Assembly (NCBI RefSeq): GCF_005885675.1
Contig: NZ_VANR01000006.1
Location: forward strand, 124,001-188,000
Direction of reading: 5' to 3'
DNA from: Polaribacter aestuariivivens
GTDB taxonomy: Bacteria > Bacteroidota > Bacteroidia > Flavobacteriales > Flavobacteriaceae
Length of the DNA: 64,000 nt
Both the position numbers and the translations under genes were made by a program. Positions 3,016-58,544 of the stretch are shown in pieces. The notes below the pieces were generated by a model. It searched no databases. It was not told the DNA's origin and saw only the letters and a list, made by a program, of their open reading frames with translations. Position 1 is the first letter of the stretch; the number at the start of each line of letters is the position of its first letter.

Positions 3016-4809
3016 GTGAAAAACTTCTTACTTCTAGCTTTACTAACTATTTCATTAATAAGTTTCGCTCAAAAAAATAATAAAAACTACAAAGAGCAAT
3101 GGCAATTTGAGGCCAAAGACTCTTCGATGTATGTTACTGCAGCTCAACAAAGAGAATTGTTCGCAACAGATAAAGAGATGCAATGGTTTAAAGATGCAAA
3201 ATTGGGCATTTTTGTACATTGGGGACCAGCCTTGTTAAAAACCAACGTACTAAGTTGGGGACGATTTGGAGAAAGACCAGGAGCTGGAAAACCTGCAACA
3301 AATGGTGTAGTACCAGAAGTTTATGACAATTTATACAAGAAGTTTAATCCTAAAAATTTTGATGCAGACAAATGGATGCAACAAGTAAAAGATTGGGGAG
3401 CAGAATACATTGTATTTACTGCAAAACATCATGATGGTTTTACTTTTTTTGATGCAAAAAACACAGACTATTCTATAATGAATACGCCTTATGGAAAAGA
3501 TATCTGCAAACAGTTAGCTGATGCTGCGCACAAAGCTGGTGTAAAATTATTTTGGTATTATTCGCAGCCAGATTGGACGCATCCAGACAATTTACGTGAA
3601 AAACATTACGAGAATTATTTACCATACATGAAAGAGCATGTTAAGCAATTATTCACAGAATATGGAAAAATTGATGGTGTGTTTTGGGATCATTTAGCAA
3701 CCAAATATTGGCAATGGGATTCTTATCACGTATTAAAAGACCTAAAAAAATGGCAACCAGGAATTATAAGCAATGCTAGAACTGGTTTTGGTTGGCCATT
3801 AAATGATAGAGGAGATTATGATACGCCAGAACAAAGTTTAGGTCCCGTAAATCATCATCGCTATTGGGAAGCTTGTTTAACCATGACAGATAAATGGTTA
3901 TACAGCCCAAAAGGTCCTATTAAACCTTATGAAACTGTTTTAGGAATGTTAATTCAAGTTGCTGGAAATGGTGGGAATCTATTATTAAATTTAGGACCTA
4001 ATGGAAAAGGAGAATTTGTAGAAAAAGAAGCAATTGAAGCCAAAAAAGTTGGAGATTGGATTAAAAAATACGGCAAAACTATAAAAAACACACGAAGAGG
4101 AATATACATTGGTGGCGATTATGGAGCTTCTACTCAAGTTGGAAACAAACTGTACATTCACGTTTTGCAAAAAAGAGCAAATAATGCATTTGCAAGTATA
4201 GAATTACCAAAATTACCAACAGAAATTATAGCTGCAAAAGGCATTACAGATGGTTTTGAGAACTATGAAATTAAAAATGGAAAATTAATCCTTCATTTTG
4301 ATAAATCTGAATTTGATAAAAATTTAGATAATATTGTTGAACTAACTTTAGCCAAAAACCCATCAAATTTTGAAAGAATTGAAACATGGAAAGCAATAAC
4401 AATTGCTAAAAAAGAGTTTGATGTAAATTCATCATCATTTATAAAAATTAAGAACAAACCAGAGGTAATTTACAGTACCAAAGGAAATGTGTTTAGTGAA
4501 GGTATTCACTTAAAATCTTGGTGGGAACCTTCAAAAGATGATAAAAACCCAAGTTTAAGTTTAGATTTTAAATCGGCTAAAAAAGTAAAAACGGTTTTAT
4601 TAAGTGAAAATATGCGTTCACACTGTGTACGAAATTTTACTATTGAAACAAAAGACAATATCGGAAATTGGAAAACTTGTTATCAAGGAAAAACAATTGG
4701 AGAAGGTTTACGAATTAAATTGAATGGAAATGCGATTTATGGAATTCGTTTAAACGTTTTAGAAAACACGAAAAATATTCAAATTACAGCTTTTAACGTT
4801 TATGAATAA
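3016..4809 (+). CDS. GH29 alpha-L-fucosidase
   Basis: This glycoside hydrolase is predicted to remove alpha-L-fucose from glycan side chains. It starts with GTG three bases after the previous stop and has a signal peptide (residues 1-19, ending SFAQ). The family motif AKHHDGF (residues 136-142) is present, and the candidate catalytic nucleophile is Asp225 in YGKIDGVFWD. The barrel is followed by a beta-rich C-terminal region (about 480-597) like the carbohydrate-binding modules often appended to GH29 enzymes. Its place between sulfatases argues for a sulfated, fucose-containing substrate. The acid/base residue was not identified by eye. Confidence 0.92.
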   Translation: MKNFLLLALLTISLISFAQKNNKNYKEQWQFEAKDSSMYVTAAQQRELFATDKEMQWFKDAKLGIFVHWGPALLKTNVLSWGRFGERPGAGKPATNGVVPEVYDNLYKKFNPKNFDADKWMQQVKDWGAEYIVFTAKHHDGFTFFDAKNTDYSIMNTPYGKDICKQLADAAHKAGVKLFWYYSQPDWTHPDNLREKHYENYLPYMKEHVKQLFTEYGKIDGVFWDHLATKYWQWDSYHVLKDLKKWQPGIISNARTGFGWPLNDRGDYDTPEQSLGPVNHHRYWEACLTMTDKWLYSPKGPIKPYETVLGMLIQVAGNGGNLLLNLGPNGKGEFVEKEAIEAKKVGDWIKKYGKTIKNTRRGIYIGGDYGASTQVGNKLYIHVLQKRANNAFASIELPKLPTEIIAAKGITDGFENYEIKNGKLILHFDKSEFDKNLDNIVELTLAKNPSNFERIETWKAITIAKKEFDVNSSSFIKIKNKPEVIYSTKGNVFSEGIHLKSWWEPSKDDKNPSLSLDFKSAKKVKTVLLSENMRSHCVRNFTIETKDNIGNWKTCYQGKTIGEGLRIKLNGNAIYGIRLNVLENTKNIQITAFNVYE

Positions 4810-4819
4810 ATTAAATATT

Positions 4820-6088
4820 ATGATTAGGCAATTAACTTTAATTGGCATTTTAACGATAACATTTCTTTCTTGTACCTCAGTAAGCAAGGTAAAAAACAAC
4901 TCAACTACAATCACTGAAGTGATTGGCGTAAAGCCGGAATTGGTTCGTGAGCCGTATTTGCAAAAAGTTCGCGAAGAATCTGCTATTATTACATGGAAAA
5001 CAAACGGAATAGTTACAAATTGCTACGTATCTTATTCAGAAAATGGAACTGAAGATAAAACAATCGTTAAAGGGTATTTAACGGCTCATGAAGGTTTTAT
5101 GTTTAACGAGGTTTCAATTTTAGGGTTAAAACCAAACACAACTTACAACTATTCCATTTATTCTAATGGGCATGTTTTAGCTACAGGAAAAGATTATTAC
5201 TTTAAAACTGCGCCATCAAATAAAAATCAAGCTTTTAGCTTTTATGCATTAGGTGATATTGGAGCAAAAGAAAAAAGTAGTTTTGCGAAAGAACCAGCAA
5301 ACCGAATTACAGAATTAGCAATTAAACCTGACTTTGGTTTAGGTTTAGGAGATATTGTGTATCCAAAAGGTGAAAGTAAAAATTACGATAATCATTTATT
5401 TAAGCCATTTAAAGAAGTCTTTAAAAATATTCCTTTTTATCCTGTTGCAGGAAACCATGATTGGTTAAGTATAAATCATGATGAGAACTTTAAAAAAGAG
5501 TGGAATTTACCTAACAAAGAATATTATTATTCATTCACTTACGCGAATACGTTATTTATAGGATTAGATTCTAGAGATGGTAATTTTTACGACTACGAAC
5601 ATCAAACCATTTGGTTAGAAAAAACCTTAAAAGAAAATAAAGATACATACGATTGGATTGTTGTTTATTTACACCACAATGGAAAAAGTTGTACGTACAA
5701 AAATGATTATGAGCATGTAAAAGGTCTTTACGATGTGTTTGCAAAAAATAGTGTAGATTTAGTATTAAATGGTCATGCACATACTTACGAGCGACTAAAA
5801 CCTTATGATGCTTTTGGAAATGTAGATGCATCAGAGACAAATCAAACAAACTATAAAAATTTAGAAAACAGATTTATTTCTGTAACTATTGGTGCTGGAG
5901 GAAAAATCAATAAAAAATGGAAACCAGACGCTAACAATTCTGAAAATTGTGATGATGGAACCATTGTAGCACATTCTGAACACGTACCAAGTTTTGGATT
6001 GATTACTATTGAAAAGAAAACATTAACTTTTAAAGGAATCAACTCTTACACAGGGGAAACTTTTGATGAATTTGTGATTAATAAATAA
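4820..6088 (+). CDS. Purple-acid-phosphatase-like metallophosphoesterase lipoprotein
   Basis: This is a calcineurin-like phosphoesterase with an N-terminal fibronectin/PAP-type domain. A start at 4820 is preferred over an upstream ATG at 4802 (overlapping the fucosidase) because it gives a clean lipoprotein signal with lipobox LSC (Cys17). The metal-binding series is visible in order: GDIG, GLGDIVY, GNHDW, LHHNG and NGHAHTYER. The REPYLQ...ITWKT segment near the N-terminus is typical of bacterial PAP-like proteins. Its role in a polysaccharide locus is unclear; it may remove phosphate from glycan or oligosaccharide. Substrate is unknown. Confidence 0.88.
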   Translation: MIRQLTLIGILTITFLSCTSVSKVKNNSTTITEVIGVKPELVREPYLQKVREESAIITWKTNGIVTNCYVSYSENGTEDKTIVKGYLTAHEGFMFNEVSILGLKPNTTYNYSIYSNGHVLATGKDYYFKTAPSNKNQAFSFYALGDIGAKEKSSFAKEPANRITELAIKPDFGLGLGDIVYPKGESKNYDNHLFKPFKEVFKNIPFYPVAGNHDWLSINHDENFKKEWNLPNKEYYYSFTYANTLFIGLDSRDGNFYDYEHQTIWLEKTLKENKDTYDWIVVYLHHNGKSCTYKNDYEHVKGLYDVFAKNSVDLVLNGHAHTYERLKPYDAFGNVDASETNQTNYKNLENRFISVTIGAGGKINKKWKPDANNSENCDDGTIVAHSEHVPSFGLITIEKKTLTFKGINSYTGETFDEFVINK

Positions 6089-13623: not shown

Positions 13624-15315
13624 ATGAGAAAAGCACTACTTATACTATGTTTTTTAGCCTCAATTGGTATAAAAGCGCAAATCACATCTGCGCAAAATGG
13701 AAATTGGAATCAAACTACAACTTGGGTTGGTGGTATCGTACCAACAGCTGCTGATAATGTAATAATAGAACATCAAGTAAAGGTGACTTCTACAAATGAA
13801 GCCGCTAATGACATTACGGTAAATGCTCCAAATGGACAATTATTGATAAATACAAGAAAGTCATTAACTATTAACGGAAATTTAGTTAATAACGACGTAA
13901 TTAGATTTAACACAGCTAATAATCAAGAAATGGGTTCACTTATATTAAAAGGAACATACACAGGAGGAGATGTTACTGCGAATTATAGACCTCAACTACC
14001 AAACGCTGATAATTGGTATTTAATTTCATCACCTCTCACGGACGCATCAATTTCTGATTTTATTACAGGTAGTAGTGTCATAAGACAAAATGCTAGTTTA
14101 GAAAATTCTATAGGTTTTTATAATGATGTAAATGCATCTGGATCCAAATATACATATTATACAGACGCTGCTGCTACAACAGCTGGAAATTTTACAGACG
14201 GGCAAGGTTACGCAGCTTTAGTTGACGCTCCAGTATCAGGTAACCAGCAATTCAAATTTCAAGGTCAAATAAATACAGGAAATGTTTCAATTCCAATAAC
14301 AGATAATTCTGGTGGTGGAAATGGTTTCAATTTGGTTGGAAACCCATATACTACCTCATTATTTGCAAATACAGATGGAGACGCAACTAACAATATTTTA
14401 ACTGTAAATACTGCAGTTTTAGAAGAAAATACACTTTGGTTTTATGATAATGCCTCAGGTACTTTTGTTACTAGAAATTTAGGTGATACAGGTTTTAGTA
14501 TTGCACCAGTTCAAGGTTTCTTTGTAAAAGCAAAAAATGGCGGTGCAGCAACTGAAAATTTTAGCATTACTGAAGATATGCAAACACATGTAGCTAGTGG
14601 TATTTTCTTTAAACCATCAGTGAATAGATTTCAAGTAGAATTAAATATTTCAAACGGAGTTAATGTCTCTAAAACCTCTGTAAGATATATTGATGGTACA
14701 AGTAAGAGTTTTGATAATGGCTACGATAGTTCAACTTTTAGCGGTTATTCTGTTAATAATTTAGAAATTTCTACCCAATTGGTTGAAAATAATACAGGTA
14801 AAAATTTAGCAATACAATCTTTACCAAACTCAAATTATGAAGATATGATTGTTCCAGTTGGAGTTGTTGCAGAAGCAGGAAAAGAAATAACGTTCACTGC
14901 TAATGCTCAAAACTTACCAAAAGGAATTAATGTGTATTTAGAAGATAGACTATTAAATACGTTTACACGTTTAGACGAAGCAAATGCAAACTACAAAGTT
15001 ACTTTAGATGATGCATCAAATGGAACTGGACGTTTTTACATGCATACAGCTTCTAAAGCATTAAGTACAGATACTGAGATTTTAAACAGTGTAAGCATTT
15101 ACAATACCAACAATAATAACTTAAGAATAGCTGGTTTACAAAATGGAGAAGCATCTGTAAATATCTTTAATATTTTAGGTAAGCAAGTATTAAGTACATC
15201 TTTTACTGCTAATGGAGCAAAAGATATTGCATTACCATCTTTAGCAAAAGGAGTTTACATTGTTCAGTTACAAAGCAATAGTGGAAAGTTGAGCAAAAAA
15301 ATTATTTTAGAATAG
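13624..15315 (+). CDS. Large T9SS-secreted surface protein
   Basis: This 563-residue protein has a signal peptide (residues 1-18, ending IKAQ). It opens with the pattern NGNWNQTTTWVGG seen in many Bacteroidota secreted beta-helix-like proteins (G8-like start). The central region includes NGFNLVGNPYTT, another motif common in T9SS cargo. The C-terminal type A sorting domain is clear: SVNIFNILGKQVL, LPSLAKGVYIVQL and a terminal KLSKKIILE. No catalytic motif was seen, so an adhesin or structural surface role is as likely as an enzyme. It lies 11 bases after the previous cargo gene and is probably in the same transcript. Confidence 0.84.
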   Translation: MRKALLILCFLASIGIKAQITSAQNGNWNQTTTWVGGIVPTAADNVIIEHQVKVTSTNEAANDITVNAPNGQLLINTRKSLTINGNLVNNDVIRFNTANNQEMGSLILKGTYTGGDVTANYRPQLPNADNWYLISSPLTDASISDFITGSSVIRQNASLENSIGFYNDVNASGSKYTYYTDAAATTAGNFTDGQGYAALVDAPVSGNQQFKFQGQINTGNVSIPITDNSGGGNGFNLVGNPYTTSLFANTDGDATNNILTVNTAVLEENTLWFYDNASGTFVTRNLGDTGFSIAPVQGFFVKAKNGGAATENFSITEDMQTHVASGIFFKPSVNRFQVELNISNGVNVSKTSVRYIDGTSKSFDNGYDSSTFSGYSVNNLEISTQLVENNTGKNLAIQSLPNSNYEDMIVPVGVVAEAGKEITFTANAQNLPKGINVYLEDRLLNTFTRLDEANANYKVTLDDASNGTGRFYMHTASKALSTDTEILNSVSIYNTNNNNLRIAGLQNGEASVNIFNILGKQVLSTSFTANGAKDIALPSLAKGVYIVQLQSNSGKLSKKIILE

Positions 15316-15343: not shown

Positions 15344-15517
15344 ATGAAAAAAAATATAAAAAACACTCAACAAGAACAAATTTCTCGTAAAGACGCTATT
15401 AAAAAAATTGGTAATTACGGTAAATACGCAGCCTTAACTGCACTAGGAACATATATGATTTTAAATCCTCAAAAAGCACAGGCACAAAGTCCTGAAGCTC
15501 CTGGAACAGGGTTTTAA
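15344..15517 (+). CDS. 57-residue exported peptide precursor candidate
   Basis: This short gene encodes 57 residues and sits 28 bases after the T9SS cargo gene, directly before a strong terminator. The N-terminus is Lys-rich and contains SRKDAIKK, which resembles the twin-arginine consensus S-R-R-x-F-L-K with Lys in the second position. A modest hydrophobic stretch (YAALTALGTYMIL) and KAQAQ follow, so cleavage after AQA would release a tail of only about ten residues ending PGTGF. Good codon use and a clean ATG support a real gene. Similar small proteins occur downstream of T9SS genes in relatives, from memory; function is unknown. Confidence 0.7.
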   Translation: MKKNIKNTQQEQISRKDAIKKIGNYGKYAALTALGTYMILNPQKAQAQSPEAPGTGF

Positions 15518-15535
15518 ATAATCTTATAAATTCAT

Positions 15536-15570
15536 AAAAAAAACCAACTCAAAATGAGTTGGTTTTTTTA
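15536..15570. terminator. Bidirectional rho-independent terminator
   Basis: A perfect stem of AAAACCAACTC and its complement around an AAAA loop is followed by a T-run on both strands. It separates the polysaccharide operon from the convergent formylglycine-generating-enzyme gene. Confidence 0.9.
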
Positions 15571-15603
15571 TGTACAGATATTAAAAATAAAGAAATTTAA
15601 TCT

Positions 15604-54002: not shown

Positions 54003-55109
54003 CTAAAAGTCTTCAAAAATTTCTCCTAAATCAAATGATAAAGAAAAACGTAATGAGTTTTCTAATGGGTTGTTTACATCAGATGCATTTATTAAATAAG
54101 ATAAATCGATATTTAAAGCATTTGTTTTAAAACCACCACCCATTGTAAAATATTGTCTGTTTCCTTTGTCTTCACTTTCGTGAAAATAACCTGCTCTTAA
54201 AGCAAAAGCATTGTTGTATAAATATTCTGCTGCCAATGCGTAAGTAATTTCTTTTAACTCTTCACTAAAACCTCCTGGAGCGTCACCGAAAGAACTAAAA
54301 ATACCTTCAACCCAACCTTTTTCATTATTTGGATCTTGAACTGTTGGCACTAATAATTTTGTAAATTCTACTGTTGTAGAAATTGTGTTATAATCGTCTA
54401 AAATAAAATCGAAACCACCTCCTAATTTTAAATTTGTTGGAATAAAATCTTCTTCACCAGGCGTGTAAGAAACCTTTGGACCAATGTTGGCTATGTTAAA
54501 ACCAATTCTATAACGTCCATTAAAATTACCGTAATTTTCTTCTAAAGATTGGTAATATCCAGAAACATCTACTGCAAATGAGTTTATAGGTTGTAAGTTA
54601 TTTCCAGCAGTTCCGTTAAAAGCTAAATTAGAACGAATGTATTTTAAAGAAACACCCATTGCAAAAGTTTCACTAAGTTTTAACGAATAAGAACCAGTTG
54701 CTACTAATTCATTTGGATTAATGGAGCCATTTGCGTTTCCTTGATTGTCTGTTAAATCTATTTGTCCAAGTGAAAAATATTTAAAATCTGCACCCCAAGC
54801 TGCGTTTTCACTAAACCTATTAATATATGAACCACTTCCTACAAAAATATCATCCGTTAAGTTACGTAGCCATGGTGAGTACGTAATTCCTGTTTTTATT
54901 TGTCGGTTACTAAATGCTATTTTAGCTGGATTATGAAATAACGAGAAAGCATCTGCTGATGTTGCCACACCAACATCTCCCATACCACCTGATCTTGCAT
55001 CTGGTACAATTAATAAAAATGGGGTTGCTGTTGTTATTCCTCCATTTTGTGCAGCAATTTTAAATGTTGCTAAAGCACAAATTATAAAACATGTTACTAT
55101 TTTTTTCAT
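54003..55109 (-). CDS. porV: Type IX secretion outer-membrane shuttle protein PorV
   Basis: This 368-residue beta-barrel protein (FadL-like) collects cargo from the T9SS translocon and passes it to the sortase PorU. A signal peptide (residues 1-20) is followed by TTATPFLLIVPDARSGGMGDVGVATSADAFSLFHNPAK read in parts, which is the diagnostic PorV start. The C-terminus ends in an aromatic-rich strand (LRFSLSFDLGEIFEDF). It lies 39 bases downstream of porU on the same strand. Confidence 0.95.
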   Translation of the reverse strand: MKKIVTCFIICALATFKIAAQNGGITTATPFLLIVPDARSGGMGDVGVATSADAFSLFHNPAKIAFSNRQIKTGITYSPWLRNLTDDIFVGSGSYINRFSENAAWGADFKYFSLGQIDLTDNQGNANGSINPNELVATGSYSLKLSETFAMGVSLKYIRSNLAFNGTAGNNLQPINSFAVDVSGYYQSLEENYGNFNGRYRIGFNIANIGPKVSYTPGEEDFIPTNLKLGGGFDFILDDYNTISTTVEFTKLLVPTVQDPNNEKGWVEGIFSSFGDAPGGFSEELKEITYALAAEYLYNNAFALRAGYFHESEDKGNRQYFTMGGGFKTNALNIDLSYLINASDVNNPLENSLRFSLSFDLGEIFEDF

Positions 55110-55148
55110 TTATTCAATTATCATATTAATTATTACAAATATACTATA

Positions 55149-58100
55149 TTATTGAAGTATTACTAATTTCTCATATTTTTCTGATACCAGATTACTTACT
55201 GTAGACTTAACTTTTAATTTATAGATGTAAACTCCTTTACCTATTTTATTGCCAAAATCATCTAAACCATTCCAAGTAATGTTTCTTGACAAATTACCTG
55301 CTGTTTGTACATTTTGGTTAATTGTTTTTATTAATTTACCAGAAACAGTAAAAATTTGAACTTGTACTTCTAGTGATTCATTTGGTTTGTTATGATTAAA
55401 CCAAAACTCTGTGTAATTTACAAAAGGATTAGGATAATTTAAAACGTTTTCTAAATTTAAAATGGCATCACTTACAACCACGAAATTTAACGTTTTTTCT
55501 GATGAGTTATTGTAAGTGTCCCACGCTTTTATTTTTAAAGTATGAGGTCCAACAGCTAAATCTCTTAGTCTATAGTTTACTTTCCCTTTTGTAAAGTCGT
55601 TTAATTCTGTTTGATAAAAGTCGTTTAAAATAATTGGGTTTGAGGTATCTCCATCTAAAATACCTACTATATCATGATCTACTGCAGTAATAGAAGTATT
55701 GATACCACTTGCATCTGATAAAACTGCTATCAAGTTAGGTGATGTGTTTGTATTTCCTCCAGCTATAAATGATTCGTCATTCATAAACAGTTGAATTTCT
55801 GGACCAACATTATCTTCTGGGGCATTTTCATCTATTCCGCCAACAACTACATCAAAATTAAAACCAGCTTTGTCAGTTTCACCATTTTCTGCATAAAAAC
55901 TTAATTTTCCTTTTCCGTATGCAACTTTGATATCTTTTGGAACAATAAAATCAAAAGAAAAAGTTCCATTGGTTATGGTTGATTTTCCTCTAAACAATTT
56001 ACTATCTTGAGTATCAAAAATCATATTTATACCAAAATTATCATTATCTAAAGTAGTTTTATCAATAGGTTTATCAAAAACAGTTGTTGATAATGAACCG
56101 TTAAAGTTATTTAATACAACGTTTGAATTATTTACAACAACACCTTCAAAACTAACCTTTGACAATGCTTTTAAGGTATCTAAGGGTTGCGAAATATCTT
56201 TACCATTCATTTTTGTAATTCTAACATTTGGTTCTGGAACAGCTAATTTCATTGCTGGATCTCCAAAAGAATAAATGAAAAATTTTTGAGAATTAAAAAA
56301 CTGATTTTTTGCTTTTAGTAGTGATTCTGATATCGATAAATCTTCATTATTAAATTCTAATAAAATTCGAATTAAATTTTCATTAAAGCTTTGTCCAACA
56401 GAAATAAAAACTTCTCTTGTTGTAGTTACCATGCTTGCAGCACCACCATTTTTATTCCATAAAGTTAGTTCACCTGCAGTAATTCTATTCGGATTGTCAA
56501 ATCTAGAAAAATCGCATGTAACTGTAATTAATAGTGGTAAAACATTAGGATTGTTAAACTCTTGAATTTGAGGTTTTTCTAAAATTCTTTCAGAAGCAAA
56601 ACCATCTTCACCTCCATGACCAAAATAATCAAAAATTAAAGTTCCTTTTTCTATTGCATTGGTTATTGCTTTTTTTACTTCTGGATAGCGTTCACCTCCT
56701 GAAGAATTTTCTTGCACGTAAGAATCTGCATAGATTTTGTTGATATTAAAAATAGGTTTATTATTTTTTATTTCATCTGCAATAGACTCTACTCCACCTT
56801 GAATTACTTCTTCTCCAGGTTCATCAATATCATCTGCTAAAAGTGTAATTGTGTTTCGCCAATCTCCTATTGAAGTTTTGCTGTAATATGATAAAATCTT
56901 ATCTACTACTTCTTTTGCTTGTGTAATTGTAGAAACAGGTATTCTACTAGAAGCAACATCTAATGTATGTGACGTTAGCATTGTACCTTCATTGGCATCT
57001 AACATCACAAAATAATCATCTGTAACATAAGAACTTGCTAAATTAAAACTTTGTTCAGATAATTTTACCGGTACAATATTATTGTTTGATGGAATTCTAT
57101 CTTTATAATCGTATGAAGAATCACCAAAAAAACAGATGTATTTTAGTTTGTTATCTGGAGAAGTATTGGTTTCATAAAGGTGTTTGATAAAATCTCGAAT
57201 TCCAGTAATATCTTTAGAACCTGAAGAAAACTCATTATAAATTTCATCTAAATTCACCACTTTTGTAGTGAGGTTAGAGTTTGTTTGATGATAATTTGCC
57301 AATCTTTGAGCTTGAGAAGTCAAATCATTATTTGTAATTATAAGATAATTAATATCTTGTAGGGCGTGTAAATTTTGATTTTCTACCTTTGCATTTTCAA
57401 TGGTTTCTGGAGTGTAAAAATCAGTTTGACTTAAAACAATATACTCTTTTAAAGCACCTCCATCATCTCTAAAACTAAAGTTATTTCCAGTACTTTCGTT
57501 AATAATACTTTTAGGAGAAATGAAGTCGGAAACATCCCAAATTTGAAAAATATTATCTGTATTCTGAATTTCGAATGTTACTGCTCCTGTTGCTTCAAAC
57601 TGTTCAAAACTTCTAAATGAAAATTGATTTCCTTTTGCATTTAATTGTTTTTTTCCAATAATTTCAACAAAATCTAAATAAGCACTTGCTGAAGGATCAC
57701 CTCCACTATTAAACGTAATATCTACTTTAATAGATTCTAATGAGTTATTTACAGCAGCAGTTCTTTCAGAAGTAAATGCCTTTGTTAATGCTCCTGGATT
57801 TACTGGAGGATATGTAATTGTGTAAACATCTTGTCCGTTTACATTTACTTGCATTGAGGCATTTGAAACCGAGTTACTAACACCTCTGGTTCTCACAGAA
57901 ATAGGTGAATTTGATAATGCATTTTCAAAAGGAATATTAAAACTCTGTGTATTTTCTATATTAAAATTATCATTAAAAAACCATTGTGTTCCAGCTGCTA
58001 AAATGTTTAACTCTTCTTTTTCTAAAAAAGTAAAATCGTCAAAATTAGTAATTGTTAAAGTTGAAGTATTGGTGTTAGAGGCTTTTGTTTGAATTCTTTT

Positions 58101-58544
58101 ACCATCAATATTATTTACTGTTATAAAATAATAAGCTTTATCTGAAAATATATTTTGACGATGTCTTGCCGTTTTTGTTGAAGTATTCACATTCCAATCA
58201 TGTGGACCTTTCGCATAAAAAAGAATAAAATCATTATTATCAAAACTTCCATCACTTTCACCTTCAATATAAATAGCATTTTCTTGCAAATCATCATACC
58301 TGAAGTCATTATTTAATGCAGGCAATAAGGTTCCACCATTTCCGTAGATATGAATTTTTTGTGGATTCAAACCATTTGTTGAAACTCCAATACGTTGCAA
58401 CAAATTTTTATCAATTTTAAAAACACCAGTAGTATCTACAGAAAACTTAAACCAAGTTCCAGATGACAAGACAGAATTACCATTTTGTGCATTAGAAAAA
58501 GGAATAATAATTATAAAAAATAGTAAGGGTAAAAATCTTTTCAT
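55149..58544 (-). CDS. porU: Type IX secretion system sortase PorU
   Basis: This 1131-residue cysteine protease removes the C-terminal sorting domain of T9SS cargo and attaches the product to the surface. A signal peptide (about residues 1-19) is followed by N-terminal beta-rich domains and a gingipain-like (C25) domain with His643 in FDYFGHGGEDG and Cys677 in ITVTCDFSRFDN. The C-terminus (NYPNPFVNYTEFWFNHN onward) resembles FlgD/Por sorting domains and may serve to attach PorU itself. It is followed by porV. Confidence 0.95.
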   Translation of the reverse strand: MKRFLPLLFFIIIIPFSNAQNGNSVLSSGTWFKFSVDTTGVFKIDKNLLQRIGVSTNGLNPQKIHIYGNGGTLLPALNNDFRYDDLQENAIYIEGESDGSFDNNDFILFYAKGPHDWNVNTSTKTARHRQNIFSDKAYYFITVNNIDGKRIQTKASNTNTSTLTITNFDDFTFLEKEELNILAAGTQWFFNDNFNIENTQSFNIPFENALSNSPISVRTRGVSNSVSNASMQVNVNGQDVYTITYPPVNPGALTKAFTSERTAAVNNSLESIKVDITFNSGGDPSASAYLDFVEIIGKKQLNAKGNQFSFRSFEQFEATGAVTFEIQNTDNIFQIWDVSDFISPKSIINESTGNNFSFRDDGGALKEYIVLSQTDFYTPETIENAKVENQNLHALQDINYLIITNNDLTSQAQRLANYHQTNSNLTTKVVNLDEIYNEFSSGSKDITGIRDFIKHLYETNTSPDNKLKYICFFGDSSYDYKDRIPSNNNIVPVKLSEQSFNLASSYVTDDYFVMLDANEGTMLTSHTLDVASSRIPVSTITQAKEVVDKILSYYSKTSIGDWRNTITLLADDIDEPGEEVIQGGVESIADEIKNNKPIFNINKIYADSYVQENSSGGERYPEVKKAITNAIEKGTLIFDYFGHGGEDGFASERILEKPQIQEFNNPNVLPLLITVTCDFSRFDNPNRITAGELTLWNKNGGAASMVTTTREVFISVGQSFNENLIRILLEFNNEDLSISESLLKAKNQFFNSQKFFIYSFGDPAMKLAVPEPNVRITKMNGKDISQPLDTLKALSKVSFEGVVVNNSNVVLNNFNGSLSTTVFDKPIDKTTLDNDNFGINMIFDTQDSKLFRGKSTITNGTFSFDFIVPKDIKVAYGKGKLSFYAENGETDKAGFNFDVVVGGIDENAPEDNVGPEIQLFMNDESFIAGGNTNTSPNLIAVLSDASGINTSITAVDHDIVGILDGDTSNPIILNDFYQTELNDFTKGKVNYRLRDLAVGPHTLKIKAWDTYNNSSEKTLNFVVVSDAILNLENVLNYPNPFVNYTEFWFNHNKPNESLEVQVQIFTVSGKLIKTINQNVQTAGNLSRNITWNGLDDFGNKIGKGVYIYKLKVKSTVSNLVSEKYEKLVILQ

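Follow-up and report, generated by a model that had tools for sequence, protein, structure and literature searches.

A micro-peptide that tracks one class of T9SS cargo in Flavobacteriaceae and may be a RiPP-like precursor

Main

A 57-residue peptide encoded behind a T9SS cargo gene in a Polaribacter genome belongs to what is apparently a four-part Flavobacteriaceae system, new to the literature that we searched: a module-bearing T9SS cargo, the micro-peptide, an RRE-HprK kinase and an NTP_transf_5 nucleotidyltransferase. The matching distribution of these parts points to a RiPP-like precursor dedicated to one T9SS cargo class, a reading that we hold to be somewhat better than an even bet. From sequence, the peptide is probably chemically modified and exported, and probably serves module-bearing surface cargos. 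The literature searched, covering the peptide sequence, HPr-rel-A and T9SS combined with RiPP-type chemistry, contains no description of the system, and neither do the protein-family databases searched.

The micro-peptide gene

The window, the whole 64,000-nucleotide stretch of DNA that was analysed, contains an ATG-to-TAA open reading frame at 15344-15517 (plus strand) with the product MKKNIKNTQQEQISRKDAIKKIGNYGKYAALTALGTYMILNPQKAQAQSPEAPGTGF. It starts 28 nt past the stop codon of a T9SS type A cargo gene (13624-15315). The initial annotation had described a 57-residue peptide with an SRKDAIKK motif, a hydrophobic stretch, an AQA site, a tail of about ten residues and a strong terminator just after the gene. 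The sequence agrees with this description: residues 14-21 are SRKDAIKK, residues 28-41 form a mild hydrophobic stretch, residues 45-47 are AQA, and a hairpin followed by a U run stands downstream. The features of the locus are as follows.

13624..15315, plus strand: partner T9SS cargo, 563 aa, almost wholly the module common to seven peptide-linked cargos (TIGR04183, 44.6 bits, cut-off 23)
14623..15312, plus strand: RemA/RemZ-like C-terminal module of about 230 aa, made up of the CTD and a penultimate beta domain (by profile, RemA at E 4e-18 and RemZ at E 5.5e-17)
15094..15312, plus strand: CTD without a PNP motif, folded like the RemZ CTD (AF2 pLDDT 90; Foldseek 8gl8_D, TMt 0.83, rmsd 2.1)
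15344..15517, plus strand: precursor-type micro-peptide gene, 57 aa plus stop codon (coding by pN/pS of 0.039/0.576 among seven genomic copies)
15344..15484, plus strand: leader, residues 1-47, with RK motif, hydrophobic stretch and AQA end, the predicted signal-peptidase site (from the alignment)
15485..15514, plus strand: core, residues 48-57, QSPEAPGTGF (identical across the seven genomic copies)
15488..15490, plus strand: codon of Ser49, the sole invariant hydroxyl residue of the core and proposed modification site (Ser in 103 of 103 distinct peptides)
about 15533..15572, plus strand: intrinsic terminator (hairpin of -18.4 kcal/mol, z -5.7, then a U run)

An open reading frame of 57 codons is weak evidence by itself, as 36 frames of at least 50 aa lie within the same 16 kb. 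The source genome carries seven copies of the peptide gene over five contigs. Across the 43 codons from the RK pair to the end, 16% of bases differ among these copies, nearly all at third positions; pS is 0.576, with synonymous sites near saturation, pN is 0.039, and SPEAPGTGF is identical in all seven. The frame is a real protein gene under strong purifying selection. Because the amino acids are constant while synonymous sites are near saturation, the seven copies are no recent duplicates. Leader-peptide or RNA-level regulation was rejected, since conservation falls on amino acids and not on bases. An apparent fusion of the peptide within a 2260-aa frame in another genome (G581) proved to be masked sequence. 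No model in Pfam, NCBIfam, PADLOC or PHROGs names the peptide, and a comparison with phages and plasmids returned no match.

Homologues occur in 20 of 199 Flavobacteriaceae genomes and at hundreds of loci in public genomes; many marine members of the family have the gene. When 395 genomes of the phylum were surveyed, the peptide proved confined to Flavobacteriaceae. The earlier view of a conserved short peptide of exported type is borne out, and the tail of about ten residues is conserved. Among 103 distinct peptides, 94 have AQA or SQA at the predicted cleavage site, and a cut past AQA would leave ten residues in 82. The equivalent of Ser49 is present in every one, and no other hydroxyl residue of the core is invariant. 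A few relatives carry longer tails rich in Gly, Pro and Asn. At L048 (5680-5964 and 7169-7456) and L050 (5172-5447), a long stretch of low-complexity sequence such as repeated KPG follows the core, which can thus be extended. Another locus, L043 (80-2003), repeats a unit of about 390 bp five times in tandem, and the same 119-aa open reading frame lies in every unit.

The cargo partners

All seven genomic copies lie behind a large T9SS cargo gene. The initial annotation had stated that this gene order is conserved. We examined 80 relatives in public genomes, for the most part of Polaribacter and Tenacibaculum, of which 72 have a measurable CTD-type upstream gene; in 71 of these 72, the peptide starts 5-60 nt past that gene (median 27, quartiles 25-28), so the stated order holds.

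The window cargo scores above the TIGR04183/Por_Secre_tail cut-off that defines type A cargos here (44.6 bits against 23). The seven cargos have a common C-terminal region of about 470-595 residues and differ in their N-terminal parts. Since what they have in common is a secretion module and not the functional part at the N-terminus, the most likely role of the peptide lies in the secretion, maturation or anchoring of this class. A comparison of the 51 CTDs of the genome puts the seven that are linked to a peptide in a single group of ten, with modest group support (86/79). In 0 of 97 peptide-linked cargos does the CTD begin with a PNP motif, as against a PNP or PNP-like motif in 32 of 44 other CTDs of the source genome. 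Not every module cargo is followed by a peptide (3 of 10 in the source genome are not), and high-scoring members of the module occur only in genomes with the system, incomplete MAGs apart. A second group of CTD cargos without PNP, with a penultimate domain of its own and no peptide, was seen in G000 on contigs C11, C12 and C13 (L102, L107, L110, L114 and L118).

The last 230 residues of the window cargo match F. johnsoniae RemA (E 4e-18) and RemZ (E 5.5e-17). Its predicted CTD superposes on the translocon-bound RemZ CTD (8gl8_D), a correspondence to the translocon-bound beta-sandwich that is at fold level only. The conserved Lys1110 of RemZ contacts PorV (PMC10994853); by our judgement of the alignment, it falls within a KK near the C-terminus that is kept in the window cargo. 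Genes for PorV (PF19572, E 7e-88) and the PorU sortase (NF033707) lie in the same window at 54003-58544 on the minus strand, about 39 kb from the peptide.

A linked kinase and nucleotidyltransferase

In many relatives, an operon encodes in succession the cargo, the peptide and two further proteins, the first of about 378 aa and the second of about 345 aa; the genes of these two overlap by 8-14 nt in most loci checked. In the source genome, the enzyme pair adjoins only the copy on contig C9 (L033), and the other six of the seven copies stand apart from the enzymes. The protein of about 345 aa belongs to PF14907 NTP_transf_5 (96-125 bits against a cut-off of 31.2) and keeps KGT..GDID.

The protein of about 378 aa is HprK-related. 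Its best NCBIfam match is TIGR04352 over residues 196-373. With scores of 55-69 bits, and of 39-74 bits over the wider comparison, it falls short of the cut-off of 200 and is no member of the HPr-rel-A kinases. Its invariant motifs, FHAS, GDSGNGKST and ADDF, make up the His-Lys-Asp-Asp set that is needed in lasso-peptide kinases (PMC9266682). A profile search against solved structures by sequence gave weak matches only. In an AlphaFold2 model built from 11 sequences (pLDDT 79), residues 7-75 form a b3a3 domain that matches TbiB1, a lasso RRE with its leader bound (5v1u; TMt 0.69; E 0.009 by Foldseek), and the remainder has a PEPCK/HprK fold (1ii2, Z 14.6; HprK 3tqf and 1kkl, E 2e-3 to 4e-3). 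The RRE (PqqD-like) domain expected of a RiPP system is thus present at fold level and sub-threshold in sequence (Pfam PqqD, E 0.009).

Among the neighbours of the enzyme pair at L033, L042 and L045, we found TrkA/TrkH, a MurC-type ligase, RadC, PALP, an M90 peptidase and a beta-barrel, and neither a lasso B2 protease nor a C cyclase. A small protein of about 185-200 aa resembling an outer-membrane beta-barrel follows the pair at L042, L045, L046, L047, L048 and L049, in several genera but not in Polaribacter; the M90 peptidase is a common neighbour in these loci too.

Co-occurrence of the four parts

We compared 199 Flavobacteriaceae genomes, nearly all from different genera, of which 165 are at least 90% complete. 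The peptide and the kinase are each present in 20, with 19 in common. The nucleotidyltransferase is found in 19 genomes, 17 of them with the peptide, and the module (at least 154 bits; next score 117) in 20, again 17 with the peptide. All mismatches among the four features fall in genomes less than 90% complete, and across the 165 more complete genomes the four occur in an identical set of 15. Fisher tests over all 199 genomes gave 2e-24, 1e-19 and 7e-19; under independence, and with shared ancestry ignored, identity of one pair over the 165 would have a probability of 1/C(165,15) = 1.4e-21. Peptides and enzymes lie at different loci in G000 and G123 and in the less complete G149, G055 and G067, which shows that the link exceeds mere neighbourhood. 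The genes of the system are few, and single-copy in several genomes.

Within Polaribacter, 48 of 50 good genomes have both peptide and module and two have neither. Copy numbers of the two (1-17) correlate with a rho of 0.92, which partly reflects duplication of the peptide-cargo pair as a unit; exactly one kinase is present in 46 of the 50. One genome (G589, 90% complete) has peptide and module with no kinase match. In another (G598), a kinase gene is kept at L239 (C19:22000-33000, kinase 4447-5583) between trkH and a Mur ligase gene, with no peptide, module or nucleotidyltransferase; this locus looks like a decaying copy of the system.

A proposed role for the peptide

These observations have the marks of a RiPP precursor. 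The alignment and the core statistics describe a short precursor with a conserved leader and a short core, and tailoring enzymes are genetically linked to it, both by the operon in many loci and by the identical 15 of 165 genomes. Signal-peptide leaders are rare among RiPPs; Sec-leader RiPPs are known (PMC12452194). We propose that the RRE-like domain of the kinase would bind the leader in the cytoplasm and present the core to the kinase, which would phosphorylate the invariant Ser49. The nucleotidyltransferase may then extend the phosphate with a nucleotide or sugar, much as PsmN acts after PsmK: in pseudomycoidin, these enzymes first phosphorylate a Ser and afterwards glycosylate it (PMC9266682). 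The signal-peptide-like leader would double as recognition handle and export signal and be cut past AQA, and the modified core of about ten residues could then serve module cargos, on the surface or at the outer membrane, as their partner, their anchor or a factor in their maturation. One enzyme pair per genome would serve all peptide copies in trans.

A more specific version is tentative: the peptide might be a phosphorylated or glyco-phosphorylated surface anchor that holds or joins module cargos after CTD removal, in place of A-LPS or a PorP-type carrier. In P. gingivalis, PorU joins cargo to a seryl-sugar on LPS (PMC13086638), which makes a modified Ser peptide attractive as an anchor. It is doubtful that the free N-terminal amine of the core is used as a PorU acceptor, because Gln would stand first in 67 of 103 cores, and N-terminal Gln in Bacteroidetes tends to become pyroglutamate (PMC5837995). 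A dependence on PorU is weakened further by two small genomes that carry the peptide system, G004 (93% complete) and G149, in which PorU was not found and SprA (sprA) is present.

Alternative explanations

The most serious alternative, to which we give about one chance in five, is that the peptide is an unmodified chaperone-like assembly factor of the inner membrane or periplasm for this cargo class, with the kinase and nucleotidyltransferase acting elsewhere. Its tight pairing with the cargo and its hydrophobic stretch would fit such a role, and there is a precedent in type B cargos, which have dedicated PorP/SprF-type partners and use these alternative carriers for anchoring (PMC10994853). 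However, peptide and kinase co-occur (19 of 20 genomes each) even when they are not adjacent, the kinase carries an RRE-like domain, and a short Ser-Pro core without a fold is among the most strongly conserved parts.

It is less probable that the peptide is a secreted signal or pheromone, with the cargos as receptors or as unrelated, co-expressed surface proteins. Multi-copy precursors, a short conserved core and RiPP-type enzymes are all compatible with signalling, but the core hardly varies between copies or across Polaribacter, and so is not species-specific, and the partners share a C-terminal secretion module and not an N-terminal domain.

We consider a canonical Tat-exported micro-peptide released from the cell to be unlikely. 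The initial annotation had called the targeting Tat-like, and RK-x-A-I-K does resemble the Tat motif; hydrophobicity is weak, a basic residue precedes AQA, and all 20 of the peptide genomes that were tested have TatC. Against this, 102 of 103 peptides have RK as the residue pair and one has RN, so that a twin arginine is never seen, and TAT-signal models run against 23 peptides gave no match apart from one weak hit to TIGR02811. Were Tat the route, at least some members of the family should have RR, and we have therefore dropped the Tat label in favour of an export-type leader.

A phosphorylated or glycosylated peptide antibiotic or bacteriocin of the lasso type is very improbable: the kinase and nucleotidyltransferase do form a lasso tailoring set (PMC9266682), but the examined loci have no lasso B2/C enzyme, dedicated exporter or immunity-type gene around the enzyme pair, the Pro/Gly-rich core is identical in seven copies and tied to a T9SS cargo, and PADLOC and PHROG gave no matches.

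Discussion

A RiPP-like precursor in this setting would be a new type of T9SS partner, and would bear on how T9SS type A cargos are sorted outside Porphyromonas into released and surface-bound proteins. With a modified peptide of its own, one cargo class would have a separate path to maturation or anchoring, and RiPP-type chemistry would extend from natural products to protein secretion. The anchor version, if true, would add a third means of holding T9SS cargo on the cell surface.

Each part of the system resembles something known. The HPr-rel-A kinases (TIGR04352) are the nearest family to the kinase, over its residues 196-373. Lasso tailoring systems (paeninodin PadeK/ThcoK; pseudomycoidin PsmK and PsmN) likewise combine an HprK-fold kinase carrying H-K-D-D, a partner annotated as a nucleotidyltransferase and a short precursor with one invariant Ser. 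Unlike in those systems, the RRE-like domain here is fused to the kinase, the leader is signal-peptide-like, the Ser is internal and not C-terminal, there is a tie to a T9SS cargo, and no lasso B2/C genes were seen. Bufferin-type RiPPs also have a precursor leader that doubles as an export signal (PMC12452194), but theirs are modified by MNIO enzymes on Cys motifs, whereas the core described here is free of Cys. On the cargo side, T9SS type A cargos with a RemA/RemZ C-terminus have a homologous module, the same CTD fold and a KK near the C-terminus; the cargos described here differ from them in lacking the PNP motif and in having peptide and enzyme partners. Type B CTD cargos with PorP/SprF-type partners offer the parallel of a cargo class with its own dedicated partner, which in that case is an outer-membrane carrier and in this one a micro-peptide.
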